A DNA stretch of 64,000 nucleotides from Psychromonas sp. SA13A (GTDB lineage Bacteria > Pseudomonadota > Gammaproteobacteria > Enterobacterales > Psychromonadaceae): contig NZ_WTKU01000024.1 of the NCBI RefSeq assembly GCF_011378715.1, positions 1-64,000 of the forward strand. Direction: 5' to 3'. Below, piece after piece: positions 44,103 to 58,144 of the stretch. Each line of letters opens with the position of its first letter. The stretch's first letter is position 1. A model generated the notes under the pieces. The model did no database searches. It saw only the letters and a program-made list of their open reading frames with translations, and had not been told where the DNA came from. The position numbers and the translations under genes were made by a program.

Positions 44103-45581
44103 TTAAGCGAGTACCAGGAAGAAGACCACTGAAATTGCCGCTGCAATCAAGGTATACGGTAGCTGTGTTAAGGCATGATTCATAGGGCTAATGCCACATG
44201 CTTTAGCTGATAGCACAGTTGAGTCACCATAGAAACAAGCATGTGAGCCAAAAGCAGATGCAGATATTAGTGCGCCAACAACCAATGGTAAATTAGCGTC
44301 TAAAGTTGTCGCTAGCGGAATAACAATTGGCATTCCAACTACAAATATTCCCCAGAAAGAGGCGGTTGCAAATGCTAAAGCGGCCATCGTTATGAAAACA
44401 ACTGCTGGCAGGTATTGTACCGTCATGAAATTAGAAGCAGCATCTATCACATAATTTGTTGTTCCAAGTGAGTCATTCACTTCTGCCAACATGAAACCAC
44501 AGAATAATGTACCTAATGGTGCAATCATACCAATAAAGCCGCTCATAATAGCATCAAACATTTTGCTCATCGGCATTAAGTTCTGCACTGCATAGAATAT
44601 AACAGTAAAGAAAATCGCAGCCATCGCGCCGGCCATGATATCTATATCAAATATCCACGTGAAAAATATAAGTGATCCAATTGGAACAAAGAAGTTAAAC
44701 ATATTGCTATTGGCTACTACTGGTTCTACTTCTTCATCAAATTTAGCATCTTCTTCATGAACCAGTTCTCCTGTTTTAGCTACTCGTTCTTCAGCTTCTC
44801 GCATTTTTCCAAACAAAGGGATATTACGATTAATAACTAAAGCCACCACTCCCAGACATACCCACGCATAAATCATGTAAGGAATAGAGCTAATGAATAA
44901 ATCCATACCTTTACCTTCACCTGCTGCACCTGTTTCTTCCAACAAACCAGAGAAAAAGACAGCCCAAGTAGAGAAAGGCAGGATAATACAAACGGGCGCG
45001 GCTGTTGAGTCCACTACATAGGCAAGAAACTCTCGGGACACTTTGACCTTATCTGTTGCTTTACGCATAGATGATCCAATGGTGAGAGCATTTAAGTAGT
45101 CATCTATAAAGATAGCTAACCCCAGTCCCATGGTAGCGAATAATGTCCCTTTACGGCTTTTTACTTTTTCTGATATCCAATGACCAAAAGCATCAGCACC
45201 GCCGGCACAACTAACGAGAGCAATGATACTGCCCATTAAACCACAGGCTATAAATATCCATGCAACGATATCATTCTGGAAAACAGTTAAGAAAATACCG
45301 CTTAATGAGGGAATGAAATCCGCTGGAGATTCAGTCATTAAAAGACCGACAATCACACCTACAAAGAGCGATTCAACCGTTCGTTTAGTATAAATTGCCA
45401 TGGTAACGACTACTGCCGCAGGCAATAAACTCCAGATCCCATAACTGGCTTCATTAAGGCCAAAAACGTTATAGCAAAAAATAGAAATCACTATGATAGC
45501 GAGTGACACTAATGCTACCTTTTTATCGATATAAGACTTTTCTCCGTGACTGAGATCAATCGCCCGTGATTGTTTAATCAT
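44103..45581 (-). CDS. NhaC-family Na+/H+ antiporter-like transporter
   Basis: The 492-residue protein has about 12 helices. The NhaC signature region includes LGLAIFIDDYLNALTIGSSMRKATD, then DSTAAPVCIILPFSTWA and GSHACFYGDSTVLSA near the C-terminus. Members exchange Na+ for H+ or organic solutes. Being last of the aminotransferase-aguA operon, it more likely moves agmatine, putrescine or a related cation than serving pH homeostasis; this is inference from position. Confidence 0.85.
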   Translation of the reverse strand: MIKQSRAIDLSHGEKSYIDKKVALVSLAIIVISIFCYNVFGLNEASYGIWSLLPAAVVVTMAIYTKRTVESLFVGVIVGLLMTESPADFIPSLSGIFLTVFQNDIVAWIFIACGLMGSIIALVSCAGGADAFGHWISEKVKSRKGTLFATMGLGLAIFIDDYLNALTIGSSMRKATDKVKVSREFLAYVVDSTAAPVCIILPFSTWAVFFSGLLEETGAAGEGKGMDLFISSIPYMIYAWVCLGVVALVINRNIPLFGKMREAEERVAKTGELVHEEDAKFDEEVEPVVANSNMFNFFVPIGSLIFFTWIFDIDIMAGAMAAIFFTVIFYAVQNLMPMSKMFDAIMSGFIGMIAPLGTLFCGFMLAEVNDSLGTTNYVIDAASNFMTVQYLPAVVFITMAALAFATASFWGIFVVGMPIVIPLATTLDANLPLVVGALISASAFGSHACFYGDSTVLSAKACGISPMNHALTQLPYTLIAAAISVVFFLVLA

Positions 45582-45710
45582 AATTAACTTCTTCCCTTTG
45601 TTATTATTAAGAATAATGAATTGAGCATTAACGTTTCAATAAACTATTAATCTCCATTCACAAATAAAACCGAGTATTGCTTCATTGCAGCTAGTCTGTT
45701 TTGTAAATAT

Positions 45711-46814
45711 TTATTTTGTGTTTTTTACTGTAGGTTGTTGTTGCGTGATGCAATGGATATTGCCGCCACCAAGTAATATTTCACGGGCAGGTACACCTAT
45801 TATCTCTCGGTCTGGAAATTGCTCAGCTAAAATAGCAGCAGCTTTATCATCTTTTTCCGGGTCTAACTTTGGAAATACGATATGTTTATTGGCAATATAA
45901 AAATTAGCATAAGAGCCTGCTAAGCGTTGGCCTTCTTCTCGGGGTTGGCTATCTTCGTTATCATCAATACCTGTTGCTTCTTCTTTACTAATAAAGAGAG
46001 GGCCTGGGTGGGGTAATTTAACGACCTTTAGTTGGCGGCCTCGCGCATCAGTACTGTTGCTTAGTATACGGTAGGCATCTTCCGATATTGCATGTTGTGG
46101 ATCGTTAGGATCTTCACAATAGTGAAGTGCGACAACACCTGGTTTAATAAAGCAGCAAAGGTTATCAATGTGGCCGTCAGTTTCATCTTCAACTGTGCCT
46201 TGATCTAACCAGATAATACGTTCGACATTCAAATAATCGCGTAATAGTTGCTCTATCTGGTGTTGGTTAAGGTCCGGGTTACGGTTGCGGTTAAGTAAAC
46301 ACTCTTTAGTGGTAATTAACGTGCCTTGCCCATCAACATGGATAGAGCCACCCTCTAATACTAGAGGAGCATCAAACCGTGTTGCATCGGTTATTTCACA
46401 AACCTTTTGTGCGACTCGACTATCTTTAGACCAGTCAGGGTAAAGACCGCCATCTTCCCCGCCCCATGCATTAAAGTCCCAATCGACAGCGGCAAGTTCA
46501 CCGCTATCATTGGTTAAAAAGCTTGGACCAATATCGCGCATCCAAGCGTCATTACTGCTCATTTCGACGACTTTGATATGCTCAGGTAACATAGTGCGAG
46601 CATTATCATATTGCTGATCGCTAACGGCTACGGTGACTTCTTCACTTTTAGAGATAGCACAAGCAACCTCAACAAATGCCTTCTGTGCAGGTGCGGCGTT
46701 TAATCGCCACACATCTTTACGTTCAGGCCAAAGCATCCAGCAACCATCGTGAGGTTCAAACTCACCCGGCATACGAAAACCTTCTTCAGCCACATTATTC
46801 GTATTATCTGTCAT
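45711..46814 (-). CDS. aguA: agmatine deiminase
   Basis: Hydrolyses agmatine to N-carbamoylputrescine and ammonia. The 367 residues have the family blocks MPGEFEPHDGCWMLWPER, NDAWMRDIGPSF, LEGGSIHVDGQGTLITT, ETDGHIDN and the catalytic cysteine in LLGGGNIHCITQQ near residue 355. It lies nine bases downstream of the aminotransferase gene. The usual partner aguB (nitrilase-type N-carbamoylputrescine amidase) is not in the window. Confidence 0.96.
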   Translation of the reverse strand: MTDNTNNVAEEGFRMPGEFEPHDGCWMLWPERKDVWRLNAAPAQKAFVEVACAISKSEEVTVAVSDQQYDNARTMLPEHIKVVEMSSNDAWMRDIGPSFLTNDSGELAAVDWDFNAWGGEDGGLYPDWSKDSRVAQKVCEITDATRFDAPLVLEGGSIHVDGQGTLITTKECLLNRNRNPDLNQHQIEQLLRDYLNVERIIWLDQGTVEDETDGHIDNLCCFIKPGVVALHYCEDPNDPQHAISEDAYRILSNSTDARGRQLKVVKLPHPGPLFISKEEATGIDDNEDSQPREEGQRLAGSYANFYIANKHIVFPKLDPEKDDKAAAILAEQFPDREIIGVPAREILLGGGNIHCITQQQPTVKNTK

Positions 46815-46823
46815 GGTCGTTGC

Positions 46824-48209
46824 CTATAAGTATTTATCTGTTTTTAAATCTTCAATCGTCGATAAAATGGCTGAACGTAGAATAGAGACAACTTCATCTA
46901 CCGTATCGCGTGTCCAAATAAGCGGTGGCGAAAGTACATTTAAATGTGCGATAGGTCTTACAATTAGCCCACGTTTTTGGCAATGAGCAGCAATACGCTT
47001 ACCTACATTTGCTTCATAAGGAATAAGTTCTTTTGTTTCTTTATTAGCAACGCTTTCAATACACATCATAAAGTGACTACCACGTACATCACCTACAATC
47101 GGTAAATCTTTTAGTGTTCTAAGTTGTTGTTCTAAATAAGGACCGACTGCTAATACGTTTTCACATATTTTTTCGCGTTCCATTATTTCAATGTTTTTTA
47201 AGGCTACTGCACAGGCAACAGGGTGACCAGAGTAAGTGAAACCAGTACTGAAAACGGCACCTTTTGCTTGTGGTTTTTTGATCACATCGTAAATTTCATC
47301 ACTTAATAGTGTTGCACCTAACGGAATGTAACCAGACGTTAAGCCTTTTGCACAAATGATAATATCTGGTTTAATACCAAAAACAGCTTCACTTGCAAAG
47401 AAGTGGCCTAATCGTCCAAATGCCGTCACAACTTCATCTGAAATGAATAGAATGTCATTGGCTTTACATAAATCAAAAATTCTTTTGTGGTAACCATCTG
47501 GTGCAACCAAAACACCACCTGCGCCCATAATTGGTTCTGCGATAAAGGCTGCAACTTGATCTGCTCCGCCCATTTCAGAGAGATTTGTTTCAAAGTCTTT
47601 TACTAGGTAATCACAGTATTCTGCTTCATTCATACCTTTTGGCATACGGTAACAATTAGCTTCACTAATGTGCGTGACTAAATTATTTACAACGTCAAAA
47701 CCTTCGTTATTACCAACGGTACCGGTTAGAGTTGATGCCATGTAAGTTGTGCCATGGTAACCACTGTGACGAGAGATGATCTTCTTTTTACTTGCCTTGC
47801 CAATTTGATTGAAGTAATAATGCACAATACGTATAGCTTGATCATTGGCAACTGAGCCACCACAACTGTAAAACACATGGTTTAGGTTGTCTGGTGCGAG
47901 TGAAGCGAGTTTTGCAGAGAGTTGAATGGCTGGAATGTTAGATAAGTTATTGAAAGGAGAGTAATAAGCCATTTTAGTTGCTTGCTCGGCCATTACCTGA
48001 CCTAGTTCAGCTCGCCCATGCCCTATATTAACGCACCATAGGCCAGCAATGCCATCTAGATATTTATTCTCTTTTATATCATAGATGTATGCGCCTTCAC
48101 TGTGTGCGATGATGTCGCAACCAGACTGATGAAAGTCTGAAAAATCAGTAAATGGATGCACGAAGTGGTCTTTATCTTGTTGCCATAGTGTTTCGATATC
48201 ATATTGCAT
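46824..48209 (-). CDS. class III aminotransferase, probably putrescine-pyruvate type
   Basis: The 461-residue PLP enzyme has GIAGLWCVNIGHGRAEL, FYSCGGSVANDQAIRI, SRHSGYHGTTYMAS, FISDEVVTAFGRLG and the PLP lysine in IICAKGLTSGYIPLGA. This wording resembles the putrescine/beta-alanine:pyruvate group (SpuC-like). Next to aguA it should convert putrescine to 4-aminobutanal. It is the first gene of the operon; its promoter shares the 220-bp divergent region with the LuxR gene. Confidence 0.85.
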   Translation of the reverse strand: MQYDIETLWQQDKDHFVHPFTDFSDFHQSGCDIIAHSEGAYIYDIKENKYLDGIAGLWCVNIGHGRAELGQVMAEQATKMAYYSPFNNLSNIPAIQLSAKLASLAPDNLNHVFYSCGGSVANDQAIRIVHYYFNQIGKASKKKIISRHSGYHGTTYMASTLTGTVGNNEGFDVVNNLVTHISEANCYRMPKGMNEAEYCDYLVKDFETNLSEMGGADQVAAFIAEPIMGAGGVLVAPDGYHKRIFDLCKANDILFISDEVVTAFGRLGHFFASEAVFGIKPDIIICAKGLTSGYIPLGATLLSDEIYDVIKKPQAKGAVFSTGFTYSGHPVACAVALKNIEIMEREKICENVLAVGPYLEQQLRTLKDLPIVGDVRGSHFMMCIESVANKETKELIPYEANVGKRIAAHCQKRGLIVRPIAHLNVLSPPLIWTRDTVDEVVSILRSAILSTIEDLKTDKYL

Positions 48210-48331
48210 ACTTATAACCCTTTGTTTATTATGATTTTAGTTTGTTTTTTTCAAAATAAATATCATATTTGTTACATGATTGTTAATAAATTTCATGTTT
48301 TTAAATTACTATCAGTCTTGAGTTGTTGGAT

Positions 48332-48348
48332 ATACCGCTAGGGGGGTA
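48332..48348. promoter_or_regulatory. putative regulator site A (ATACCnnTAGGGG)
   Basis: ATACCGCTAGGGGGGTA lies between the divergent aminotransferase and LuxR genes. The first 13 bases match site B at 49241-49253 at all positions but two. TACC and GGTA at its ends make an imperfect dyad. It may be the operator of the LuxR-type regulator. Confidence 0.4.
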
Positions 48349-48430
48349 AATAGCGATATATTTTGATAATAAACACGTACTATGGGGTGAATTGCATGCT
48401 ATTTTACAATTTACACGGTTGAGGGAAATA

Positions 48431-49201
48431 ATGGATTGGAATAAATCGATCGCCAACATGATCAACCACATGTCACTGCCCAGTTGGCCTGGGGTGATGA
48501 TAGAGAGTTTACAAAGCTTAGCGCATTTTGATACTTGTCTTGTTGCCACTTATAAGCAGCAGTTCAAGCCGATTATTGTGCACACCTCTTATCAACTGGA
48601 GTCACAAAAAAATATTCGAAGTTTTGTGAATAAAGCCTACTTGTTAGATCCACTCTACAACGCTATTGACCACGGGATCGCTAGCGGCTTATATCGCTTG
48701 CGAGATTTAGCACCAGACTCTTTTGAGCACACAGAGCAATATAAAAGTTGCTATAGTGATTTTGACCTCAAAGACGAAATAATTTTTGTTACTCACTTAA
48801 ATAATGATGTTGTATTTTCTATTTCTCTCGGTAGAACTTCTCGATTGGGGGGTATTAGTAGAGATGAGTTGAATCGTTTGAAGAGTGTACAGCCTATTAT
48901 ACAAGCAATGAGTCTACAATTTTGGCAAGCACAGTCTTCGCAGTATGTGCATGATGAAAAGTCTCGTTATTCTCTAGAACACGCCATTGATACTTTTGAC
49001 AGTAATGTACTTACACCGCGAGAAAAAGAGATCACTGGGTTAGTGCTACAAGGTTACTCTTCAAAAGCCATTGCTGATCATTTAAGTATTAGTGTTGGTA
49101 CAATCAAAGTGCATCGTAAGAGTATCTATTTGAAGCTCAATATATCAAGAGAATCAGAATTATTTTCACAATTTATTAACCACCTACGCACCATTTCTTA
49201 A
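48431..49201 (+). CDS. LuxR-type transcriptional regulator of the polyamine region
   Basis: 256 residues from ATG 48431, which has GAGGGA upstream; the frame is open 13 codons further back. The N-terminal ~180 residues are an unassigned sensing domain. The C-terminal LuxR HTH is clear: LTPREKEITGLVLQGYSSKAIADHLSISVGTIKVHRKSIYLKLNI. No receiver domain is present. It lies between the divergent agmatine operon and the amidohydrolase operon, so it is the natural candidate to control both. Confidence 0.88.
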   Translation: MDWNKSIANMINHMSLPSWPGVMIESLQSLAHFDTCLVATYKQQFKPIIVHTSYQLESQKNIRSFVNKAYLLDPLYNAIDHGIASGLYRLRDLAPDSFEHTEQYKSCYSDFDLKDEIIFVTHLNNDVVFSISLGRTSRLGGISRDELNRLKSVQPIIQAMSLQFWQAQSSQYVHDEKSRYSLEHAIDTFDSNVLTPREKEITGLVLQGYSSKAIADHLSISVGTIKVHRKSIYLKLNISRESELFSQFINHLRTIS

Positions 49202-49240
49202 TTTTTACATCATAAATTCTCATCTCAGATAAGAAAACTT

Positions 49241-49256
49241 ATACCTGTAGGGGTAT
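49241..49256. promoter_or_regulatory. putative regulator site B (ATACC-N6-GGTAT)
   Basis: ATACCTGTAGGGGTAT has perfect 5-bp arms around six bases, 55 bp before the M20 amidohydrolase start. It shares ATACCnnTAGGGG with site A. A related TATAGGGG occurs at 53535-53542 before the GNAT gene. Confidence 0.45.
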
Positions 49257-49310
49257 AGGTTTTGTCACTGCATGCCCCTTAATATCAAAAGATACTAAAA
49301 AGGAGGCTTA

Positions 49311-50546
49311 ATGAATAACCAAGCAATTAACCAAAGTAGACTGTGGGATAGCCTGATGGAAATGGCTAAAATAGGCGCGACTGAAAAGGGCGGATGTTGT
49401 CGCCTTGCATTGACTGACATTGATAAACAAGGGCGCGATCTTTTCATTAGCTGGTGTGTTGAAGCAGGTTGTTCGATACATATTGATAAAATGGGCAATA
49501 TTTTTGCTCGTCGAGAAGGCCGTGATGCTAATGCTGCAGCCATTGGGACAGGTAGTCATTTAGATACGCAGCCTACAGGTGGAAAATTTGATGGTATTTA
49601 TGGTTGCCTTGCTGGATTAGAAGTAATTCGTAGTTTAAATGAACAAAATATAACCACAAACAGACCTATTGAAGTCTCAGTATGGACAAATGAAGAAGGT
49701 TCTCGTTTTGCACCTGCAATGGTTTCTTCTGGTGTTTACAGTGGAAAATTCGATTTAGATTATGCACACCAGCAAACGGATAGTGAAGGTATTACTATTG
49801 GTGAAGCATTAAATGCCATTGGTTATATGGGTGATGAAGAAGTGGGTAATCGCAACTTGCATAAATTCTTTGAGTTACATATCGAGCAAGGTCCCGTATT
49901 AGAACAAGAAGAAAAACAAGTAGGTATCGTGACCGGTGTACTAGGGATGCGTTGGTACGATGTTACGCTAGAAGGGACATCTGCACATGCAGGCCCAACA
50001 CCAATGAGTTATCGAAAAGATGCACTTTATGCTGCAACGCAAGTGTTTAGTGAGCTTTACCAAATAGCAGAAGCAGGCGAAGCTGGTAGTGCTCGTTGTA
50101 CTGTCGGTGAGCTTAATATCATTAAAGGATCTCGAAATGTTATCCCTGGTGAAGTCACATTCACGTTAGATTTACGTCATGCAGAATTAGCGGGCCTCGC
50201 TGATTTAGAAGATAAAGCACAGCAAGTGATTGCAAAAGTCGCTGAAAGTACGGGTGTCACCATCAAACTAAACAATATCTGGGATAGTCCTCCACTTGCA
50301 TTCAATGCTGATTGTGTTGCTGCTGTTGCTAAAGCAGTTGAAAATTCTGGTTTAACTTACCAACGCTTAGTCAGTGGTGCAGGGCATGATGCCGTTAATA
50401 TTTCAACCGTGGTACCGACGTCTATGATCTTTATTCCTTCGATTGGCGGTATTAGCCACAATGAAGCTGAATATTCTAGTCCAGATCAAGTAGGTGATGG
50501 CTGTCAGATTTTATTTGATCTGTTAGTCAATGAAGCAAATACCTAA
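49311..50546 (+). CDS. M20-family Zn-dependent N-carbamoyl-amino-acid amidohydrolase (HyuC/AllC-like)
   Basis: The 411-residue cytosolic hydrolase has the metal-site blocks of the allantoate/N-carbamoyl amidohydrolase group: GTGSHLDTQPTGGKFDGIYG, WTNEEGSRFAPAM, FELHIEQGPVLE, SGAGHDAVN and ISHNEAEYS. The dimer-domain arginine-containing region GSRNVIPGEVTFTLD is also kept. Members cleave N-carbamoyl groups to amine, CO2 and NH3. With aguA nearby and no aguB, N-carbamoylputrescine is a reasonable substrate; N-carbamoyl-beta-alanine is an alternative. It has a strong AAGGAGG site and heads a four-gene run. Confidence 0.88.
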   Translation: MNNQAINQSRLWDSLMEMAKIGATEKGGCCRLALTDIDKQGRDLFISWCVEAGCSIHIDKMGNIFARREGRDANAAAIGTGSHLDTQPTGGKFDGIYGCLAGLEVIRSLNEQNITTNRPIEVSVWTNEEGSRFAPAMVSSGVYSGKFDLDYAHQQTDSEGITIGEALNAIGYMGDEEVGNRNLHKFFELHIEQGPVLEQEEKQVGIVTGVLGMRWYDVTLEGTSAHAGPTPMSYRKDALYAATQVFSELYQIAEAGEAGSARCTVGELNIIKGSRNVIPGEVTFTLDLRHAELAGLADLEDKAQQVIAKVAESTGVTIKLNNIWDSPPLAFNADCVAAVAKAVENSGLTYQRLVSGAGHDAVNISTVVPTSMIFIPSIGGISHNEAEYSSPDQVGDGCQILFDLLVNEANT

Positions 50547-50595
50547 TAAACACTTAATAAAAAACATCAGTCGTCATTTGACAATGGAGCATGAA

Positions 50596-52086
50596 ATGAA
50601 AAGTTATCAGCAATGGCAAGAAATGGCCAAATCAATTAAATTTAACACTAACGCATTCATTAATGGAGAGTTTGTTCCTGCACAATCAGGTGAAATATTT
50701 ACTTCTATTAACCCTGCAACAGGGGAAGTTTTAGCTGAAGTGGCAAGTTGTGATAGTGAAGATGCTGACTTAGCCGTTAGTGCTGCCAAGCAAGTTTTTC
50801 AATCTGGTGTTTGGTCGCGTCGTCCAGCATTAGAGCGTAAAAAAACCTTATTAAAATTTGCAGACTTGATTGAACAGAATAGTGATACGTTGTCGTTAAT
50901 TGATACCCTTGATATGGGTAAGCCTATTGCTGATTGTGTTGGTTTTGATATACCCAATACAATAGAAACATTCCGTTGGACTGCAGAAGCTATTGATAAA
51001 ATTTATGGTGAGATCTCTCCAACGAATACCACTAGTATGGCATTAATGACCCATGAGCCAATTGGTGTGGTTGCTGCCATTGTACCGTGGAACTATCCAT
51101 TAATGATGGCGAGTTGGAAAATTGCACCTGCATTAGCTGCGGGTAATAGTGTTATTTTAAAGCCTTCTGAAAAATCACCATTGAGTGCCTTGTTCTTAGC
51201 GACCTTAGCAAAAGAAGCAGGTATTCCTGATGGCGTGTTCAATGTTTTACCTGGCTTTGGCCATACGGTAGGTAAAGCGCTGTCGTTACATAATGACGTT
51301 GATGTCATTACCTTTACTGGTTCAACTAGAGTCGCTGGTCAATTGATGGCTTATGCTGGTCAATCAAACTTGAAACGAACTTGGCTTGAAGCGGGTGGCA
51401 AATCACCTTGTATCGTTTTTGCAGATTGTGACGATTTAGAAGCTGCTGCTTTTGGTGCTGCTTTTGGTATTTTCTCTAATCAAGGTGAAGTGTGTATTGC
51501 AACTTCTCGATTATTGATTGAAGAATCCATTAAAGATAAATTCATGAGTTTATTAGTGGAACAAGCGAAAAAATTTATTCCTGGTGACCCACTTGATCCT
51601 GAAACGAATATGGGCGCTATTGTCGACCAACAACACCTCGATAATATTTTAAGCTTTATTGAATCTGGTGTTAGTGAAGGCGCTAACTTGTTATACGGCG
51701 GTAAACAAACCTCTGTTAATGAAAAAGGCTGTTATATAGAACCCACTATTTTTACCGATACAAAACAAGACATGAATATTGTTGAGAATGAAATCTTTGG
51801 TCCTGTTGTGGCTGTGAATACCTTTACGACATGGGAGGAAGCGGTGAGTTTAGCCAACGATAGTAAATATGGTTTGGCAGCAGGTGTGTGGACTAGCAAC
51901 TTGAAAAAAGCACATAAAACGGCTCGTGAACTACAAGCTGGCATGGTATGGATTAACAATTGGGCTGGTAGTGATTCTACAACCCCTTTTGGTGGTGTTA
52001 AGCAGTCTGGTAATGCACGTGATAAATCACTTCACTCTATTGATAAATACACAGAACTTAAAACAACGTGGATCGACTTAGGTTAA
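50596..52086 (+). CDS. aldehyde dehydrogenase, PuuC-like
   Basis: 496 residues from ATG 50596 with GGAG six bases upstream; the frame extends back over the previous stop. It is an NAD(P)+ ALDH with AAIVPWNYPLMMASWKIAPAL, FTGSTRVAGQL, LEAGGKSPC with the catalytic Glu in LEAGG, and the nucleophile in NQGEVCIATSR. It resembles PuuC (gamma-glutamyl-gamma-aminobutyraldehyde dehydrogenase). Here it should oxidise 4-aminobutanal to GABA. Confidence 0.9.
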   Translation: MKSYQQWQEMAKSIKFNTNAFINGEFVPAQSGEIFTSINPATGEVLAEVASCDSEDADLAVSAAKQVFQSGVWSRRPALERKKTLLKFADLIEQNSDTLSLIDTLDMGKPIADCVGFDIPNTIETFRWTAEAIDKIYGEISPTNTTSMALMTHEPIGVVAAIVPWNYPLMMASWKIAPALAAGNSVILKPSEKSPLSALFLATLAKEAGIPDGVFNVLPGFGHTVGKALSLHNDVDVITFTGSTRVAGQLMAYAGQSNLKRTWLEAGGKSPCIVFADCDDLEAAAFGAAFGIFSNQGEVCIATSRLLIEESIKDKFMSLLVEQAKKFIPGDPLDPETNMGAIVDQQHLDNILSFIESGVSEGANLLYGGKQTSVNEKGCYIEPTIFTDTKQDMNIVENEIFGPVVAVNTFTTWEEAVSLANDSKYGLAAGVWTSNLKKAHKTARELQAGMVWINNWAGSDSTTPFGGVKQSGNARDKSLHSIDKYTELKTTWIDLG

Positions 52087-52221
52087 GTCATTATTAATTT
52101 TTAAAATTATTTCAATATTGTTAATTCGACTAAGGTAACTGCATCTTAAACGGAGCTTGTATATGCTCATCAATAGCACGTTGCCTTATTCAAATTCAGC
52201 CTTATATAATCGAGTAGCCCC

Positions 52222-53490
52222 ATGGATAAAATATTATTAAATTCCATTCTAGCGGCTGTTGAAAAACGCCGTATTCATGTAATCGATGAGTTAACTGACT
52301 TGGTTGCTGCTGATAGCACGCTAGGCAATGAGCAACAAGCGCAAGCGATTATTAAACGTGTTTTCGAAGGGTTAGGTACAGAAGTAAATGAGGTCACTAT
52401 TGATCTTGATAAATTATCTGTATTACCTGGTTTCTCTCCTCCTGTTATTAATAATACCGATGGTCGCGTTAATATTATTGGCCTTCATACTCCCAAACAA
52501 ATAATCGGCAAATCACTTATTTTAAATGGTCATATGGATGTTGTGCCGACTGGCCCATCACTCTTATGGGAACACCCTCCTTTTGAGCCTTATGTTGACG
52601 GTGATTGGTTTTATGGTCGAGGTAGCGGTGATATGAAAGCAGGGATTGTAGCCTATTGTAATGCCTTCGCCGCTTTAAAAGATTTAGGATATCAACCTGC
52701 AGCAAAAGTTATTCTGCAAAGTGTTATCGAAGAGGAGTGTACAGGCAATGGTGCATTGGCTTGTTTAGATGCTGGTTACACTGCAGACGCAGCTATTATT
52801 CCAGAACCTTTTGGTCAGTCTTGTCTTATTGCTCAATTAGGGGTGATGTGGTTTCAGTTAAAACTAACCGGTAAACCTGCACACGTTCTTGATACTTCTA
52901 GTGGCAGTAACGTATTCGATTCGCTGTATGTATTGACCAATAAATTGAAAGAATTAGAAACAGAATGGAATAAACAAGAACATCGCCATCAGTGTTATAG
53001 CGGACATGATCATCCCATCAATTTTAATCTCGGTAAAGTACATGGGGGGGATTGGGCTTCAACGGTTGCTTGTTATTGTGAAGCTGATTTTCGTGTTGGA
53101 TTTTATCCGGGAATGACGCTTGAATACGTTAAAGAAAAATTACAACAAACCATTAACGAAGCCGATATAGTAAGTGATATTGAAGTTGAGCTTTGTTATA
53201 CAGGCTTCCAAGCAGAAGGCTGTGCAATTGAAGAAGAAGCCCCATTAATTGAATCAATCAAAGAAGCACACCGTATTGTCGCGAACAGTGATTGTGAAAC
53301 ACTGGCTGTTACTTGTACAACTGATGCCCGTTTTTTTCAGTTGTATGGCAATACACCTGCTACTTGTTATGGCCCTATTGCTGAAAATATTCATGGTTTT
53401 AATGAAAGAGTCTCCATTAACAGCACAGTACAAGTGGCACAAGTGTTGGCTGTCTTTATCGCTAATTGGTGTGGCTTAGAAAAAATATAA
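52222..53490 (+). CDS. M20-family ArgE/DapE-like deacylase
   Basis: The 422-residue di-zinc hydrolase has NGHMDVVPTGPSLLWEHPPF, WFYGRGSGDMKAGIVAY (bridging Asp), the catalytic Glu in VIEEECTGNGAL, and C-terminal CTTDARFF and ENIHGFNERVS. It belongs to the acetylornithine deacetylase/succinyl-diaminopimelate desuccinylase group. It is distinct from the HyuC-like neighbour. It might remove an acyl group from an acylated polyamine or amino acid. Its ribosome-binding site is poor. A GNAT acetyltransferase follows. Confidence 0.82.
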   Translation: MDKILLNSILAAVEKRRIHVIDELTDLVAADSTLGNEQQAQAIIKRVFEGLGTEVNEVTIDLDKLSVLPGFSPPVINNTDGRVNIIGLHTPKQIIGKSLILNGHMDVVPTGPSLLWEHPPFEPYVDGDWFYGRGSGDMKAGIVAYCNAFAALKDLGYQPAAKVILQSVIEEECTGNGALACLDAGYTADAAIIPEPFGQSCLIAQLGVMWFQLKLTGKPAHVLDTSSGSNVFDSLYVLTNKLKELETEWNKQEHRHQCYSGHDHPINFNLGKVHGGDWASTVACYCEADFRVGFYPGMTLEYVKEKLQQTINEADIVSDIEVELCYTGFQAEGCAIEEEAPLIESIKEAHRIVANSDCETLAVTCTTDARFFQLYGNTPATCYGPIAENIHGFNERVSINSTVQVAQVLAVFIANWCGLEKI

Positions 53491-53568
53491 TAGGTGAGCC
53501 CTTATCAATTACACAGGTGGTAAGGTGTGATTGGTATAGGGGGGATCTATAAAAATAGGTAAAACAAC

Positions 53569-54111
53569 ATGTTAGTATTTGAAAGAATTGAAGATAAAGC
53601 GCATCCTTATTTTGAGGAAGCTTTTTCGCTATATGAGAAAAGCTTTCCTATTTTTGAACGAAGAGCTAAGTACGACCAAATATCTGCACTAACCGATAGT
53701 GAATACCACTTTATTATTATTAAAAAAGAAACGGGCGAGCTGTTAGGTATTTTACTAACCTGGCATAAAGATGATTTTACTTATGTAGAGCACTTTGCCA
53801 TTACGCCGCTTGCAAGGGGCAAAAGCATTGGTACTCGTACTTTAAAATATTTAAAAAAAGTGTCTGATAAAACAATCCTTTTAGAGATAGATCCACCTGT
53901 TGATAAGATTTCAATAAAAAGAAAAGTCTTTTATCAACGAATTGGTTTTATACAGAGTAGCAAAATCTATATCCACCCATCATATCGAGAAAAAACAGAA
54001 CCTCATCAATTAATGATCATGTCATATCCTGCCTTAACAGAGGATGTTTATTCAAGCTTTCAGGAGAGTTTGAGCAATCAAATCATGCAACATTCTGAAG
54101 TTGATTACTGA
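53569..54111 (+). CDS. GNAT-family N-acetyltransferase
   Basis: The 180-residue protein has the GNAT core: strand and acetyl-CoA loop in YVEHFAITPLARGKSIGTRTLKYLKK, then DKTILLEIDPP and KVFYQRIGFIQS. The substrate is unknown. It follows the ArgE-like gene by 78 bp, and TATAGGGG precedes it. The position suggests polyamine or amino-acid acetylation. Confidence 0.8.
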   Translation: MLVFERIEDKAHPYFEEAFSLYEKSFPIFERRAKYDQISALTDSEYHFIIIKKETGELLGILLTWHKDDFTYVEHFAITPLARGKSIGTRTLKYLKKVSDKTILLEIDPPVDKISIKRKVFYQRIGFIQSSKIYIHPSYREKTEPHQLMIMSYPALTEDVYSSFQESLSNQIMQHSEVDY

Positions 54112-54173
54112 GAGCATAGTATAAAGCTTAAGGTGTAGAGAGGCAGAGTAAGGTATATAATAGTAGTTATTAA

Positions 54174-54208
54174 AAAGCCCTATTAAGTTATTAATAGGGC
54201 TTTCTTTA
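54174..54208. terminator. bidirectional terminator between the GNAT gene and gabT
   Basis: A 13-bp perfect stem (54174-54186 with 54191-54203), loop GTTA, with A upstream and T downstream, lies between convergent genes. Confidence 0.88.
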
Positions 54209-54234
54209 AGCCGCTTTTTATTAAAACTAGTTTA

Positions 54235-55542
54235 TTAACTGACTTTTAAGTTTTCCACTGACTCTACTACTAGGCTTTCAAACAGCGCTGTAAAGTTATC
54301 TAAACCTTCATTGGCGATGTCGTCTGAAATAGTTAATGCAGGTAAGAAACGGATAACGTTGCCGTAAAAACCACAGGCAAGAAGTACTAAACCGTGTTGA
54401 GCGGCATTAGCAATAATATCTTGTGTTAGCTGTGTATTTGCTTGCTCAGGATCGCCATTTTTAACAAATTCAATCGCAATCATTGCTCCTTGATTTCTCA
54501 CTTCTAAGATAGTGTCAGGATACTGTTGCTGTAATTGGCTGAGGCGTTTATTAAATAACTCACCAATCTCTACAGAGCGTTGTACTAGATTTTCTTCTTC
54601 AATCACTTCTAGTACTGCTAACGCTGCTGCACAAGCGACAGGAGAGCCACCATAAGTACCACCTAAACCACCTGGTAAAGGCGCATCCATTATTTCACTT
54701 TTACCAACAACCGCTGAAATAGGAAAGCCACCTGCAATACCTTTTGCCATAGTCATTAAATCAGCTTCCACACCAGAGTGTTCAAAAGCAAACATTTTTC
54801 CGGTACGGCCAAAACCTGATTGAATTTCATCGGCAATTAATACGATGCCATGTTGGTCGCAGATTTCACGTAGTGCTTGTAAAAACTCAGTTGGGGCAGC
54901 GTAAAATCCACCTTCGCCTTGTACTGGCTCAATAATAATAGCAGCCACATCTGTTGGGCAGATATCAACTTTAAATAAGTTTTGTAATGCTTTTAATGAA
55001 TCTTTTACAGATACATCATGGCGTTCCATTGGGAACGGGGCATGAAAGATATCAGCAGGGAAAGGACCAAATAAATTTTTATAAGGCGTTACTTTACCCG
55101 TTAAAGCCATGGTTAAATTAGTACGACCGTGGAAACCGCCATTAAAAGCAATAACACCTCGGCGTCCGGTATGGGCACGTGCGATTTTTACACAGTTTTC
55201 AACTGCTTCTGCACCTGTGGTGACAAAAATAGCTTTTTTAGGTGAGTTACCTGGCGCAGCTGCTGTTAATTTTTCAGCTAATGTTACAGCTACTTCATAA
55301 GGGTTGACCATGACGCAAGTATGGCTAAATTTATCTATTTGCGCTTTGGCTGCAGCAACAACTTTAGGATGGCTATGACCAGTATTACAAACGGCGATCC
55401 CAGTACCAAAATCAATATAACGTTTACCTTCAACATCCCAGATCTCTGCATTTTTTGCATGCTCAACATAGACAGGATAAATATTGCCTTGGCCACGAGC
55501 GAAGACTTGTGCTTTTCTGCTTTGTAAACTTTGATTTGTCAT
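54235..55542 (-). CDS. gabT: 4-aminobutyrate aminotransferase
   Basis: Transfers the amino group of GABA to 2-oxoglutarate, giving succinate semialdehyde. The 435-residue class III PLP enzyme has IDFGTGIAVCNTGHSHPKV, TTGAEAVENCVKIARA, GGFHGRTNLTMALTGK, IIEPVQGEGGFY, IADEIQSGFGRTG and the PLP lysine in TMAKGIAGGFPISAV. The C-terminal GVDNFTALF-like end fits GabT. Downstream of gabD on the same strand, 90 bp apart. Confidence 0.94.
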   Translation of the reverse strand: MTNQSLQSRKAQVFARGQGNIYPVYVEHAKNAEIWDVEGKRYIDFGTGIAVCNTGHSHPKVVAAAKAQIDKFSHTCVMVNPYEVAVTLAEKLTAAAPGNSPKKAIFVTTGAEAVENCVKIARAHTGRRGVIAFNGGFHGRTNLTMALTGKVTPYKNLFGPFPADIFHAPFPMERHDVSVKDSLKALQNLFKVDICPTDVAAIIIEPVQGEGGFYAAPTEFLQALREICDQHGIVLIADEIQSGFGRTGKMFAFEHSGVEADLMTMAKGIAGGFPISAVVGKSEIMDAPLPGGLGGTYGGSPVACAAALAVLEVIEEENLVQRSVEIGELFNKRLSQLQQQYPDTILEVRNQGAMIAIEFVKNGDPEQANTQLTQDIIANAAQHGLVLLACGFYGNVIRFLPALTISDDIANEGLDNFTALFESLVVESVENLKVS

Positions 55543-55632
55543 AATAATTCCTAATATTTGCTATCAGCTTAATGGTTATAACCAAGCCACTTTAAGTGGT
55601 TTGGTGTATATAAATGAGAGTTAATAAATACT

Positions 55633-57090
55633 TTATTTATTTAAACCACCCATGCATAAATATTTTATTTCTAAGTAGTCATCTAATCCGTATTTAGAAC
55701 CTTCACGACCACTGCCTGATTGTTTGATACCACCAAAAGGTGCAGCTGCATTTGATATCATCGCTTCGTTAATACCAACCATGCCATACTCTAAGCCTTC
55801 GGCTACGCGCCAAACTCGACCTATATCGCGAGAATAAAAGTAAGCGGCTAAACCCACTTCACAATCATTTGCCATTTCAAGTACTTGATCTTCATCGTCA
55901 AAGGCAATAATTGGAGAAACAGGGCCAAATATTTCATCTCGTGCAATGGGCATATCATTACTTACATTAGTTAATACCGTCGGCTGATAGAAAGTATTGC
56001 CAGCACTGTCACGCTGCCCACCTAATAATACTTTTGCACCTAATGCGACAGAGTCAGTTACTAATTTATCAACACCATCAACAGCATTTGATGAAATCAT
56101 TGGACCAATTTGAACACCATCAGTCATGCCATCGCCAATTGTTAGGCTAGCCACTGCTGTTTTGAACTTTTCAGTAAACTCTTCAAGCACACCGTTTTGT
56201 ACAAAAATACGGTTTGTACAAACACAAGTTTGACCCGCATTGCGATATTTAGATGCCATTGCACCTTCTACGGCGGCATCGATATCAGCATCGTCAAATA
56301 CGATGAAAGGGGCGTTACCACCTAATTCCATAGAAACTTTTTTAACGGTTGAAGCACACTGTTCAATTAATAGTTTTCCAATCGCTGTGGAACCTGTAAA
56401 AGTAAACTTTGCAATATCTGGGTGTTGAGTTAAGACTTTACCCATACCTGCAGCGTCCTCCCCAACAACTACATTGAATACGCCAGCGGGAATACCTGCT
56501 CTTTCAGCAAGCTCTGCCATCGCTAATGCTGACAGCGGTGTTAATGTTGCAGGGCGAACCACAAACGTACAACCTGCCGCCAATGCTGCCGCTGCTTTTC
56601 TTGCGATCATTGCATTAGGGAAGTTCCAAGGTGTAATAGAAGCAACAACGCCAACGGGCTGTTTTACGACAACAATGCGTTTATCGCCTGAAGGAGCAGG
56701 GATAGTATCGCCATAAACACGCTTACCTTCTTCAGCAAACCATTCAACAAATGCCGCGCCGTAACCAATTTCGCCCTTTGCTTCTGCAAATGGTTTACCT
56801 TGTTCTAAAGTTAAAATTCGTGCTAAATCATCTTGATGTTGGATCATTAAATTGAACCAATTACGCATCAAAGTACCGCGTTCATTAGCTGACTTTGCAG
56901 ACCATTTTTTTAGTGCATTCTTTGCCGCTTTAACGGCCAACTCTGTTTCAGCGATACCTGCATTACAAACTTGAGTTAATACTTCACCAGTGGCTGGGTT
57001 CGAAACATTAAAAAATGATTCACTGCTATGCCAACTACCATCGATATATGAAAAGGTTTTGAGTAATTGATTGTCTTTTATCTGCTGCAT
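55633..57090 (-). CDS. gabD: succinate-semialdehyde dehydrogenase
   Basis: 485 residues from ATG 57090, which has GGAG upstream; MEII at 57102 is less likely. NAD(P)+ ALDH with ITPWNFPNAMIARKAAAAL, FTGSTAIGKLL, MELGGNAPFIVFDDADID (catalytic Glu) and the nucleophile in NAGQTCVCTNR. The length and wording fit GabD. It oxidises succinate semialdehyde to succinate, the last step of the GABA shunt encoded here. The LysR gene is divergent from it. Confidence 0.93.
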   Translation of the reverse strand: MQQIKDNQLLKTFSYIDGSWHSSESFFNVSNPATGEVLTQVCNAGIAETELAVKAAKNALKKWSAKSANERGTLMRNWFNLMIQHQDDLARILTLEQGKPFAEAKGEIGYGAAFVEWFAEEGKRVYGDTIPAPSGDKRIVVVKQPVGVVASITPWNFPNAMIARKAAAALAAGCTFVVRPATLTPLSALAMAELAERAGIPAGVFNVVVGEDAAGMGKVLTQHPDIAKFTFTGSTAIGKLLIEQCASTVKKVSMELGGNAPFIVFDDADIDAAVEGAMASKYRNAGQTCVCTNRIFVQNGVLEEFTEKFKTAVASLTIGDGMTDGVQIGPMISSNAVDGVDKLVTDSVALGAKVLLGGQRDSAGNTFYQPTVLTNVSNDMPIARDEIFGPVSPIIAFDDEDQVLEMANDCEVGLAAYFYSRDIGRVWRVAEGLEYGMVGINEAMISNAAAPFGGIKQSGSGREGSKYGLDDYLEIKYLCMGGLNK

Positions 57091-57226
57091 GATTATCTCC
57101 AATTTGATGACACATTTTGAAAGCGTTTTATAAGTTTGAGCACATCTTTATTGAGGCTATTGAATAACAATTTTATTTGATGTTAAATACAAAACATTAA
57201 ACAATAAGTTTGGGGCTGGTAAAACT

Positions 57227-58144
57227 TTGAATAAGACTTCTATAATTCCTAAAACCATCGCAGAGTATGATTTACGCTTATTACGGATTTTTGTTGCTGT
57301 GGTTGAAAATGGGGGATTTGCAGCAGCTGAGTCCGCACTCGGTATCACTCGATCAACTATTAGTGTGCATATGTCTTCTTTAGAAGAACGAATGAAACTC
57401 AAGCTTTGTTTACGTGGTCGAGGTGGGTTTTCACTGACAGAGGATGGTTTGGTTGTGTACCGGGCTGTTATAAATTTATTTGAATCGTTAAATGATTTCT
57501 CTTTGTTAGTGGGTACCTTGAGCCGTGAATTAAGCGGTGAGCTAGTGATTTTATGTGCAGATCAGTTAAACCAATCTAGGCAGGATAAACTGGCTGAAGT
57601 GGTGCAACTTATTCATAAAAACTCTCCTAATTTACATCTTGTTTTAGACAGTGAACCGATCGCTAATATTGAAAAATCATTACTAAAAGATAAAGCACAC
57701 ATCGGTTTATATCCTAATTATCAACAAATCGAAGGTCTTCATTACCAATACCTTACTAGTGAAGCTGTTTATCTTTGTTGTAGTAAAAAACATCCATTTT
57801 TTACTAAAGTTGATACTTTAATTAGTGCTGAAGAGTTAGCTACAGTACCCGCTATTCATCCTGGAATGGACGTACATCCCTCTGGTATCGAGCAGTTGAA
57901 AAAACTAAACCTTGCCGCTAAGTCTTATCAATTTGATACTAGGAAAGCGATGATTTTATCCGGTTGTTATATTGGCTTTATGCCCCAAAGCTATATTCAA
58001 AGTGAGTTAAATCAAGGAGAAATAAGAATTATTCAGCCTAGTGAGCTTACTTATCAATTTGACCTATCATTGGTTGCGAAAAAGTCACCAAGAGAAGCTA
58101 ATAAAGTTAAATTATTAACAGAAATATTTAATCGCATTTTTTAA
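57227..58144 (+). CDS. LysR-type regulator of gabDT
   Basis: The 305-residue LTTR has an N-terminal winged helix (about 13-72: LLRIFVAVVENGGFAAAESALGITRSTISVHMSSLEERM) and a substrate-binding domain. The start is a TTG at 57227 with a weak upstream site; no in-frame ATG lies before the HTH. Divergent from gabD with a ~136-bp gap, it is the expected regulator of gabD-gabT. The inducer is probably GABA or succinate semialdehyde. Confidence 0.85.
   Translation: MNKTSIIPKTIAEYDLRLLRIFVAVVENGGFAAAESALGITRSTISVHMSSLEERMKLKLCLRGRGGFSLTEDGLVVYRAVINLFESLNDFSLLVGTLSRELSGELVILCADQLNQSRQDKLAEVVQLIHKNSPNLHLVLDSEPIANIEKSLLKDKAHIGLYPNYQQIEGLHYQYLTSEAVYLCCSKKHPFFTKVDTLISAEELATVPAIHPGMDVHPSGIEQLKKLNLAAKSYQFDTRKAMILSGCYIGFMPQSYIQSELNQGEIRIIQPSELTYQFDLSLVAKKSPREANKVKLLTEIFNRIF

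Follow-up and report, generated by a model that had tools for sequence, protein, structure and literature searches.

A putative agmatine catabolic cluster of Psychromonas with a predicted carbamoyl-capped route and an M20-family candidate 4-ureidobutyrate amidohydrolase

Results

A predicted route from agmatine to succinate

Analysis of a 64,000-nucleotide stretch of Psychromonas sp. SA13A, hereafter the window, suggested that one of its regions encodes agmatine catabolism that keeps the carbamoyl group produced by the agmatine deiminase AguA in place, as a protecting group, until the acid stage; judging from sequence, we give this reading a probability of about 0.7. Agmatine entering through an NhaC-type carrier would be converted by AguA into N-carbamoylputrescine, from which a class III aminotransferase (AT) would form 4-ureidobutanal. 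A KauB/PuuC-like aldehyde dehydrogenase (ALDH) would oxidise this aldehyde to 4-ureidobutyrate, i.e., N-carbamoyl-GABA, and an M20-family carbamoylase, here named M20C, would split the latter into GABA, CO2, and NH3, leaving GabT and GabD to take GABA to succinate. A LuxR-type regulator would act at operator-like sites ahead of both operons, and neither free putrescine nor 4-aminobutanal would be formed. We infer each of these substrates, and the order of the steps.

The aguA operon lies on the reverse strand and contains the genes for AT (46824-48209; 717 bits with NF005447/PRK07036, cut-off 618), AguA (45711-46814; 575 bits with TIGR03380, cut-off 381.8), and, as the last gene, the NhaC-type transporter (44103-45581; PF03553), predicted to take up the substrate. 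The facing forward-strand genes encode the LuxR-type regulator with a GerE domain (48392-49201; PF00196, true start uncertain), the 411-aa M20C (49311-50546), and ALDH (50530-52086), whose true start is probably downstream of 50546. Further on, the reverse strand carries gabT, for 4-aminobutyrate aminotransferase (54235-55542; 570 bits with TIGR00700, cut-off 506.65), and gabD, for succinate-semialdehyde dehydrogenase (55633-57102; 694 bits with the SSADH model TIGR01780, cut-off 646.35); position 57090 is an internal ATG of the latter frame and the probable GabD start. An earlier note on this DNA had described the region as running from agmatine to succinate, and this looks right: AguA, AT, ALDH, GabT, and GabD are present, the frames that it named are open where it placed them, and profile scores confirmed their families.

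Three genes of the region were absent from that note. The NhaC-type gene is one, and relatives of it were found close to AguA or AT in clusters of Psychromonas, Marinobacterium, and Modicisalibacter. The other two, accessory genes on the forward strand for an ArgE/DapE-type M20 deacylase (52222-53490; NF005306, 489 bits) and a GNAT acetyltransferase (53569-54111; PF00583), separate ALDH from gabT. The cluster position of the ArgE/DapE-type gene is not conserved, as the gap between ALDH and gabT of another M20C locus (L015) is without it. A LysR-type regulator gene (57227-58144, forward strand) is divergent from gabD, and a LysR-type gene also follows gabT-gabD in L015.

Known second-step enzymes were not found in the genome

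The claim of the earlier note that the nitrilase-type AguB is missing was borne out by the genome-wide search that it had called for: in an assembly whose completeness is given as 99.98%, the best match to TIGR03381 reached 83 bits, against a curated cut-off of 410. The genome has four CN-hydrolase matches. The best model for the one of 292 aa was deaminated glutathione amidase, below cut-off, and size suggests that those in frames of 513 and 550 aa are Lnt and glutamine-dependent NAD synthetase; for the protein on contig C37 the best model was formamidase, far below cut-off. AguY, an amidase of about 568 aa beside aguA, was not found in the genome either, and the sole PF01425 match was a 411-aa amidase on contig C1, of NF006169 type, in a ureide-type cluster. 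Likewise, no putrescine carbamoyltransferase (PTC), and so no AgDI system (AguA, PTC, and carbamate kinase), was found in the genome: its two carbamoyltransferases had ATCase and OTCase as best models, and the PTC model gave 241 bits with the second, for a cut-off of 500. Neither AguB nor PuuA, PuuB, or PuuD was found in 17 loci (16 with M20C, plus L138), and none of the three Puu proteins was seen among the window ORFs between 40 and 60 kb.

M20C stands in the second-step position at some aguA loci

We then considered 96 aguA loci (95 neighbourhoods plus the window) from 394 genomes of the source order. Every one of them had exactly one second-step gene, which was AguB at 46 loci, AguY at 38, PTC-like at eight, and M20C at four, these last belonging to one genus and not being independent events. 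An AT of the window type lay within the distance limit of aguA solely at the four M20C loci. Besides the window, AguA, AT, and M20C shared a locus in three other Psychromonas, five Marinobacterium-type, and three Modicisalibacter genomes. In Psychromonas (the window, L014, and L015), M20C and ALDH lie on one strand; in L264 and L265 they adjoin each other, with no AguA within about 9 kb and the rest of the gene set absent.

Some observations speak against the capped route. ALDH is missing from 6 of 17 M20C loci (L016, L017, L019, L026, L038, and L266), the contig of L016 ending immediately past M20C. Two genomes (G004 and G006) retain M20C, AT, NhaC, and LuxR and gave no AguA match at 1e-20. 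Four M20C genomes hold AguB or AguB-like genes elsewhere, above cut-off and on a different contig in G008, and in separate AguA/AguB-like pairs below cut-off in three Modicisalibacter genomes. In addition, Marinomonas-type M20 homologues, placed between the main M20C clade and the Modicisalibacter copies, have loci without AguA or AT.

Operator-like sites precede both operons

A palindrome of the pattern TATNCC-N5-GGGTATA, TATACCTGTAGGGGTATA, was found on the forward strand at 49240-49257, 71 bp upstream of M20C. The pattern, drawn by eye from the very loci counted, occurred in 16 of 17 M20C-type loci; of 134 control loci, one had it. In 15 of the M20C-type loci, the M20C match began 71-135 bp downstream of it. 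L264 and L265 carry it with M20C and ALDH only. The sole control bearing it was L133, a Marinomonas AguB-AguA locus that also has PuuA-like and PuuB-like genes, an ALDH 61% identical to that of the window, and a LuxR-type protein 48% identical to the window regulator. The exact pattern was present in 32 of 283 loci, namely the M20C-type loci, their duplicates, and this Marinomonas locus. A further operator-like site, TATACCGCTAGGGGGGTA, lies between the AT and LuxR genes (48331-48348, forward strand), fitting a looser pattern and not the stricter one; its part TATACCNNTAGGGG at 48331-48344 is one of two window matches, with 0.09 expected from shuffles, and a site is found at the same place in L014-L016. 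With one mismatch, the palindrome is not rare within the window (shuffle mean 0.23; two or more in 3 of 100 shuffles). The LuxR-type regulator would bind these sites before both operons.

M20C retains the carboxylate-binding arginine

M20C passed the M20 hydantoinase/carbamoylase model TIGR01879 (444.5 bits, cut-off 204) and NF006769 (599 bits, cut-off 452), and its best PDB match was 5thw_A. In alignment with RrCbAA, whose numbering offset of 6 was checked, E131, Q196, R291, and H385 correspond to E128, Q193, R289, and H383, so that the carbamoyl-orienting Glu, Gln, and His and the carboxylate-binding Arg are all found in M20C. These residues are conserved in 14 of 14 members of the M20C clade, a single clade in which M20C groups with agmatine-type copies, and in all three Modicisalibacter copies. 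In the RrCbAA structure 8C46, R291 forms a salt bridge with the ligand carboxylate (PMC10952681), and this M20 family member accepts N-carbamoyl-gamma-aminobutyric acid as a substrate. Because the arginine is kept and a family member hydrolyses N-carbamoyl-GABA, action of M20C on 4-ureidobutyrate is likelier than on N-carbamoylputrescine.

The genome also holds enzymes for other roles. Its C23 M20 copy, a paralogue 52% identical to M20C, has the context of the pyrimidine pathway, adjoining genes for dihydropyrimidinase and a PreT-like protein (the latter named by eye), and a second paralogue, 30% identical, lies in a ureide-type cluster. An agmatinase and a SpeA-like gene can make putrescine. 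Since these roles are already taken, we counted this in favour of M20C acting in the capped agmatine route; M20C very probably serves agmatine catabolism.

AguA, AT, and ALDH

Besides passing its model, the window AguA retains all 68 positions that are identical in all 13 M20C-type AguA proteins compared and in no fewer than 99 of 100 others; nine further positions characterise the M20C type, none of them otherwise invariant. Among the PDB relatives of AT are 6gwi, a putrescine aminotransferase, and 9j4z, a polyamine:pyruvate transaminase, neither being the closest. The top PDB match of ALDH was KauB (6b4r, 663 bits), named as 4-guanidinobutyraldehyde dehydrogenase and having an N-capped 4-aminobutanal as substrate, while gamma-glutamyl-gamma-aminobutyraldehyde dehydrogenase (4lih) gave 558 bits. 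PuuC was its best NCBIfam model, with a score below the cut-off of NF007352 (676 bits vs. 850), and the ALDH of a Puu cluster (L193) likewise fell short with 752 bits.

Alternative readings of the cluster

The gene content fits equally well with M20C acting first on N-carbamoylputrescine, and the same gene set is sufficient if AT and ALDH precede M20C. Because gene context alone leaves the step order unsettled, we retained the reading in which M20C is a non-homologous N-carbamoylputrescine amidohydrolase and putrescine then passes through AT, ALDH, GabT, and GabD to succinate. That an M20 enzyme replaces AguB had been the proposal of the earlier note, and the position given to the gene stands, in view of its exclusivity at the 96 aguA loci and the operator-like sites before both operons. 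M20C excluding AguB, AguY, and PTC-like genes in the order sample favours this reading, as do AguY, a precedent for non-homologous replacement of AguB, and the kinship of AT with putrescine and polyamine transaminases. However, the substrate is probably wrong: N-carbamoylputrescine has an ammonium group where the arginine (R289), kept throughout the clade and in the Modicisalibacter copies, would bind a carboxylate. The common strand of M20C and ALDH, their pairing without a nearby AguA in L264 and L265, and the two M20C genomes without an AguA match also argue against it, and we consider it unlikely. Far less probable is that AT and ALDH make 4-guanidinobutyrate from agmatine, with AguA converting it to 4-ureidobutyrate and M20C releasing GABA. 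The KauB-like ALDH and M20C chemistry identical to that of the capped route would suit this order, but the AguA score on the agmatine deiminase model and the 68 ordinary-AguA positions retained oppose it, and nothing indicates that AguA has turned to a substrate with a carboxylate.

There is a very slight chance that M20C is a beta-ureidopropionase or allantoate amidohydrolase of the usual kind, placed there by coincidence. M20C and the pyrimidine-type copy both belong to NF006769 (599 and 625 bits, respectively); against this, pyrimidine-type and ureide-type copies are present elsewhere in the genome, dihydropyrimidinase and PreT genes were found at 0 of the 17 loci and were not seen among the window ORFs between 40 and 60 kb, the cluster and palindrome are conserved over three lineages, and M20C scored 278 bits on the AllC model TIGR03176, whose cut-off is 597.75. 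Equally remote is the idea that another amidase performs the AguB step. The neighbours of the formamidase-like C37 nitrilase are an APC-type permease and a LuxR-type gene whose product is a distant relative (28%), but no relative with more than 38% identity was found at 1e-10 in 19 other genomes, 13 of them with M20C-type genes. The C1 amidase belongs to the ureide-type cluster. Its identity to AguY is 27% over 222 aa, and NF006169 fits it best, whereas the AguY reference fits NF005127.

Discussion

The capped route was not found in our literature searches, and on sequence grounds it is fairly likely that it is an unreported, putrescine-free route of marine Gammaproteobacteria with a carbamoyl cap, an M20 4-ureidobutyrate amidohydrolase, and a LuxR-type regulator whose Marinomonas relative apparently controls AguAB and Puu genes. 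It resembles the Puu pathway, which spends ATP and glutamate on its protecting group: there, a gamma-glutamyl cap is added with ATP, oxidation of the capped aldehyde falls to a PuuC-type dehydrogenase, and PuuD cleaves off the cap, L193 being an example with AguA, AguB, PuuA-, PuuB-, PuuC-, and PuuD-like genes, GabT, and GabD. In both, a capped amine would be processed by a PuuC-type dehydrogenase acting on the capped aldehyde, a hydrolase would free GABA, and GabT and GabD would finish the work; here, however, the cap would be the carbamoyl group left by AguA, a transaminase would stand in for the PuuB oxidase, and an M20 carbamoylase for PuuD. In the 4-guanidinobutyrate (KauB) route of pseudomonads, an N-capped 4-aminobutanal is oxidised, and GABA is obtained once a ureohydrolase has taken the cap off the resulting acid. 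The predicted route would share the KauB-type dehydrogenase and the stage of cap removal, with a ureido instead of a guanidino cap and an M20 carbamoylase instead of the ureohydrolase.

With the AguA-AguB and AguA-AguY routes it has the AguA step in common, in which N-carbamoylputrescine is produced from agmatine (PMC12283126), whereas the locus described here has neither a nitrilase-type AguB nor an amidase-type AguY and is predicted to bypass putrescine. Similarly, M20C shares family and ligand residues, including the carboxylate arginine, with M20 N-carbamoyl-beta-alanine amidohydrolases (RrCbAA, 8C46; 5THW; and, by context, the C23 copy), but forms a separate clade tied to AguA, AT, and ALDH, and not to dihydropyrimidinase and PreT.

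If the proposal is true, N-carbamoylputrescine would have one more fate than those set by AguB, AguY, and putrescine carbamoyltransferase, and this fate, alone of the four, would not yield putrescine. The route would then account for some aguA genomes that have no known second-step gene beside aguA. It would give sharper names to a clade now called 'allantoate amidohydrolase' or 'Zn-dependent hydrolase', and it would mean that a by-product group can be a protecting group.

Gene content of the region

The genes named for this region in the earlier note were borne out by the ORFs and family models in the window. An operon on the minus strand, from 48209 down to 44103, encodes the class III aminotransferase (AT), agmatine deiminase (AguA) and NhaC. 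On the plus strand, a LuxR-type gene is followed by those for the 411-aa M20 carbamoylase (M20C, 49311-50546) and the KauB/PuuC-like aldehyde dehydrogenase (ALDH), together spanning 48392-52086. Genes for an ArgE/DapE-type M20 deacylase and a GNAT protein (52222-54111) lie between ALDH and gabT, and GabT-GabD with a divergent LysR gene occupy the far end. In the nearest relative, an uncultured Psychromonas (locus L014), the M20 protein is 98% identical to that of the window, and the ArgE/DapE-type deacylase is found about 8 kb away, beside a gene judged by eye to be symporter-like; in locus L015, gabT comes directly after ALDH, with no deacylase or GNAT gene between them. A PotABCD-like ABC transporter follows the L014 cluster (L014:13817-17706; 164 bits on the PotD model, cut-off 582, permeases assigned by eye). 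Histone-deacetylase-family genes were also observed by NhaC-type transporters, aguB or an M20 homologue (L014:3676-6216, L136:7594-11995 and L025:11238-12305; assigned with Pfam in L014 and L025 and by eye in L136), hinting at a possible module for polyamine-conjugate deacylation. L136 holds NhaC, the histone-deacetylase-like gene, LuxR and AguB, AguA being absent from the stretch, and in the Marinomonas-type locus L025 the gene is next to the M20 homologue.

Genomic link between M20C and agmatine

Three lines, namely exclusivity, recurrence and a regulon, connect M20C with agmatine, and on these grounds it very probably serves agmatine catabolism in some capacity. In the survey of the order, AguA was found in 93 of 394 genomes, at 96 places, and the neighbourhoods analysed were 95 fetched ones, some of them cut by contig ends, plus the window. 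Genes were counted as linked when their centres lay at most 5.5 kb from AguA and identity was at least 35%. Each of the 96 places carried exactly one gene for the step after AguA: AguB at 46, AguY at 38, a PTC-like gene at eight (the putrescine carbamoyltransferase reference itself reaches 430 bits on its model, below the cut-off of 500) and M20C at four, all of them in Psychromonas, so that these events are not independent. An AguD-like gene accompanies four of the 46 AguB places. Under the same genus label, AguB was found at L209 and L219, and the PTC type at L139. A survey of the class, based on an even draw of 370 genomes and too sparse, gave an aguA match at 1e-100 in ten of them (seven above the cut-off), including the genome of the window; AguB was present at six of the other nine loci and M20C at none. 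None of the four second-step genes was inside the linkage limit at L123, L125 and L128 of this survey. At the AguB loci L124 and L126, an AT 39-40% identical to that of the window lies about 6-7 kb from aguA, and AT-like genes are thus not strictly tied to M20C.

Judged by the curated cut-off, AguB is absent from the whole assembly (4.57 Mb, completeness given as 99.98%): the AguB model requires 410 bits, and the highest score obtained was 83. AguY or other amidases, carbamoyltransferases and other nitrilases were also sought across this genome, and no fitting candidate was found. There was no AguY-type amidase, the sole amidase-signature match genome-wide being a 411-aa protein of a ureide-type cluster (contig C1, 257510-262755). 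Besides the amidase, this cluster encodes an M20 amidohydrolase (516 bits on NF006775) and three proteins identified by eye, namely one like gamma-glutamyltransferase, an aminotransferase and one like PuuE. The two carbamoyltransferases (L012 and L013) had the ATCase and OTCase models as their best matches, which speaks against the AgDI route. The agmatinase gene adjoins a SpeA-like gene, assigned by eye, so AguB is not needed in this genome for making putrescine, and a catabolic role is the best reading of the aguA cluster. Contig C37 (2317-5794) pairs an APC-type permease with a formamidase-like nitrilase, and the adjoining LuxR-type gene shares 28% identity with that of the window; this nitrilase was set aside as a hidden AguB because no match above 38% identity (1e-10) was detected in 19 other genomes checked.

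The gene set recurs in other genera. Five Marinobacterium-type loci (L020-L023 and L266) have NhaC, AguA, AT, LuxR and M20C together, with ALDH in four, and the same set is split over two contigs, L018 and L138, in the Marinobacterium-type genome G005. In Modicisalibacter (L026, L038 and L040), NhaC, AguA and AT recur with a more distant M20C; ALDH is seen in L040, which, like L026, also has a LuxR-like gene. Modicisalibacter muralis contains, some 8 kb away from its first AguA, a second full one (L038:14306-15427, 559 bits). Two further loci, L264 and L265, carry M20C, ALDH and the palindrome described below, with neither AguA nor AT within about 9 kb. When AguB was searched in 12 genomes with AguA and M20C (G000-G003, G005, G007-G010, G013, G025 and G027; G862, the source of L266, was outside this set), nothing was detected at 1e-30 in eight. 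The metagenome-assembled genome G008 has an AguB above the cut-off on a different contig, and the three Modicisalibacter genomes gave sub-cut-off matches of 245-270 bits, one of which in each adjoins a divergent AguA; these cases weaken strict genome-wide exclusivity.

In the phylogenetic tree, the M20C copies that occur with AguA, AT or ALDH formed one clade (n = 14; ultrafast bootstrap 99, SH-aLRT 93), separate from the copies linked to dihydropyrimidinase or PreT. The three Modicisalibacter copies formed their own branch nearby, with five Marinomonas-type homologues in between; the latter adjoin a dipeptide-type ABC system (by eye), and neither AguA nor AT was found within their loci. The agmatine label changed more than once on the tree (five changes, partly due to three ALDH-only rows labelled apart).

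A palindrome shared by the M20C loci

The palindrome TATNCC-N5-GGGTATA was drawn by eye from these very loci, so its counts describe conservation and are not a blind test: it occurs somewhere in 16 of 17 M20C-type loci (the exception is L019), in 15 of the 17 it lies 71-135 bp ahead of the start of the M20C match, and there are 23 sites in 395 kb when L138, which has none, is added as the 18th locus. The controls were 134 loci (2.28 Mb), for the most part further aguA and M20 loci, and L133 alone contained the palindrome, in two copies. Mononucleotide-shuffled M20C loci had no palindrome in 19 of 20 replicates and two in the other. Over 283 loci, the exact pattern was present in 32, comprising M20C-type loci, duplicates of these and the Marinomonas locus (L060, L067 and L133). 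A looser motif, ACC..TAGGGG, was also found in 4 of 92 controls, and the palindrome was used instead. In the window, the exact palindrome occupies 49240-49257, while a looser one falls in the gap between AT and LuxR, at 48331; with one mismatch allowed, TATACCNNTAGGGG matched just these two sites in the 64 kb, and 0.23 palindromes at one mismatch are expected per shuffled window.

L133 is the AguB-AguA locus of Marinomonas communis L027. Its LuxR and ALDH are 48% and 61% identical to those of the window, and it also encodes PuuB-like and PuuA-like proteins. One site lies between ALDH and AguB, and the other between the PuuA-like gene and LuxR. From this content and these sites, a similar regulon appears to govern AguAB with Puu-type genes in Marinomonas, and M20C with AguA, AT and ALDH elsewhere. 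Both arrangements include ALDH, whereas AguB, PuuA and PuuB belong to the former and are replaced by AT and M20C in the latter.

Active site and predicted order of reactions

In M20 carbamoylases, the carbamoyl end of the substrate is described at the metals and the carboxylate end as held by an arginine; in RrCbAA, a solved N-carbamoyl-beta-alanine amidohydrolase of this family, the residues are Glu131, Gln196 and His385 for the former and Arg291 for the latter (PMC10952681). By alignment, with a constant offset of 6 between chain index and the numbering of that paper, the counterparts in M20C are E128, Q193, H383 and R289. All four are kept in the clade (14/14), in Modicisalibacter (3/3), in the Marinomonas-type homologues (5/5) and in nearly all others. 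N-carbamoylputrescine has an ammonium group at the end where the carboxylate would bind. The positions special to the clade include no obvious ammonium-binding residue, and E267, typical of the clade, was judged from sequence to be distant from the site. Human beta-ureidopropionase is described as accommodating 4-ureidobutyrate and being inhibited by the same compound. This enzyme has a different fold from the M20 enzymes. For RrCbAA, activity on N-carbamoyl-gamma-aminobutyric acid is reported, exceeding that on the alpha isomer more than 1.5-fold (PMC10952681), which indicates that 4-ureidobutyrate is acceptable to the family. M20C has close solved relatives (best E 7e-140), the top one being 5thw_A, and 5THW is cited for bound N-carbamoyl-beta-alanine (PMC10952681). 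The top solved match of ALDH is KauB, named 4-guanidinobutyraldehyde dehydrogenase in the literature, and 4-ureidobutanal should be close in shape to that aldehyde; the specificity of AT for its proposed substrate is predicted from family only.

Taken with the active-site match, the substrate range of RrCbAA and the KauB-like ALDH make AguA, AT, ALDH, M20C, GabT and GabD the parsimonious order of steps. We put at roughly 70% the probability that the carbamoyl group is retained in this way, with M20C acting late, on 4-ureidobutyrate. In Marinobacterium jannaschii and Amphritea balenae, AT, M20C, NhaC and LuxR are kept and no AguA match was found; under this carbamoyl-capped route, imported N-carbamoylputrescine or another deiminase could be the source.

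The available text of PMC12283126 lists agmatinase, putrescine carbamoyltransferase and AguB, adds AguY, and has no mention of an M20 enzyme. The open-access literature searched, covered mostly by title and abstract, yielded no description of such a route, whether through its predicted intermediates 4-ureidobutanal and 4-ureidobutyrate (N-carbamoyl-GABA) or through a transaminase acting on carbamoylputrescine. Two matches on 'carbamoylputrescine aminotransferase' there are figure legends that name AguB, and the ureidobutyrate of PMC4581275 is a different compound.

The earlier note had proposed M20C as a non-homologous replacement of AguB that hydrolyses N-carbamoylputrescine. This is partly supported: in the pathway as a whole M20C stands in for AguB, but N-carbamoylputrescine is an unlikely substrate, since the carboxylate-binding arginine, R289, is kept, and 4-ureidobutyrate is the most likely one. 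M20C would then be a 4-ureidobutyrate amidohydrolase, working at a late step of the carbamoyl-capped route.
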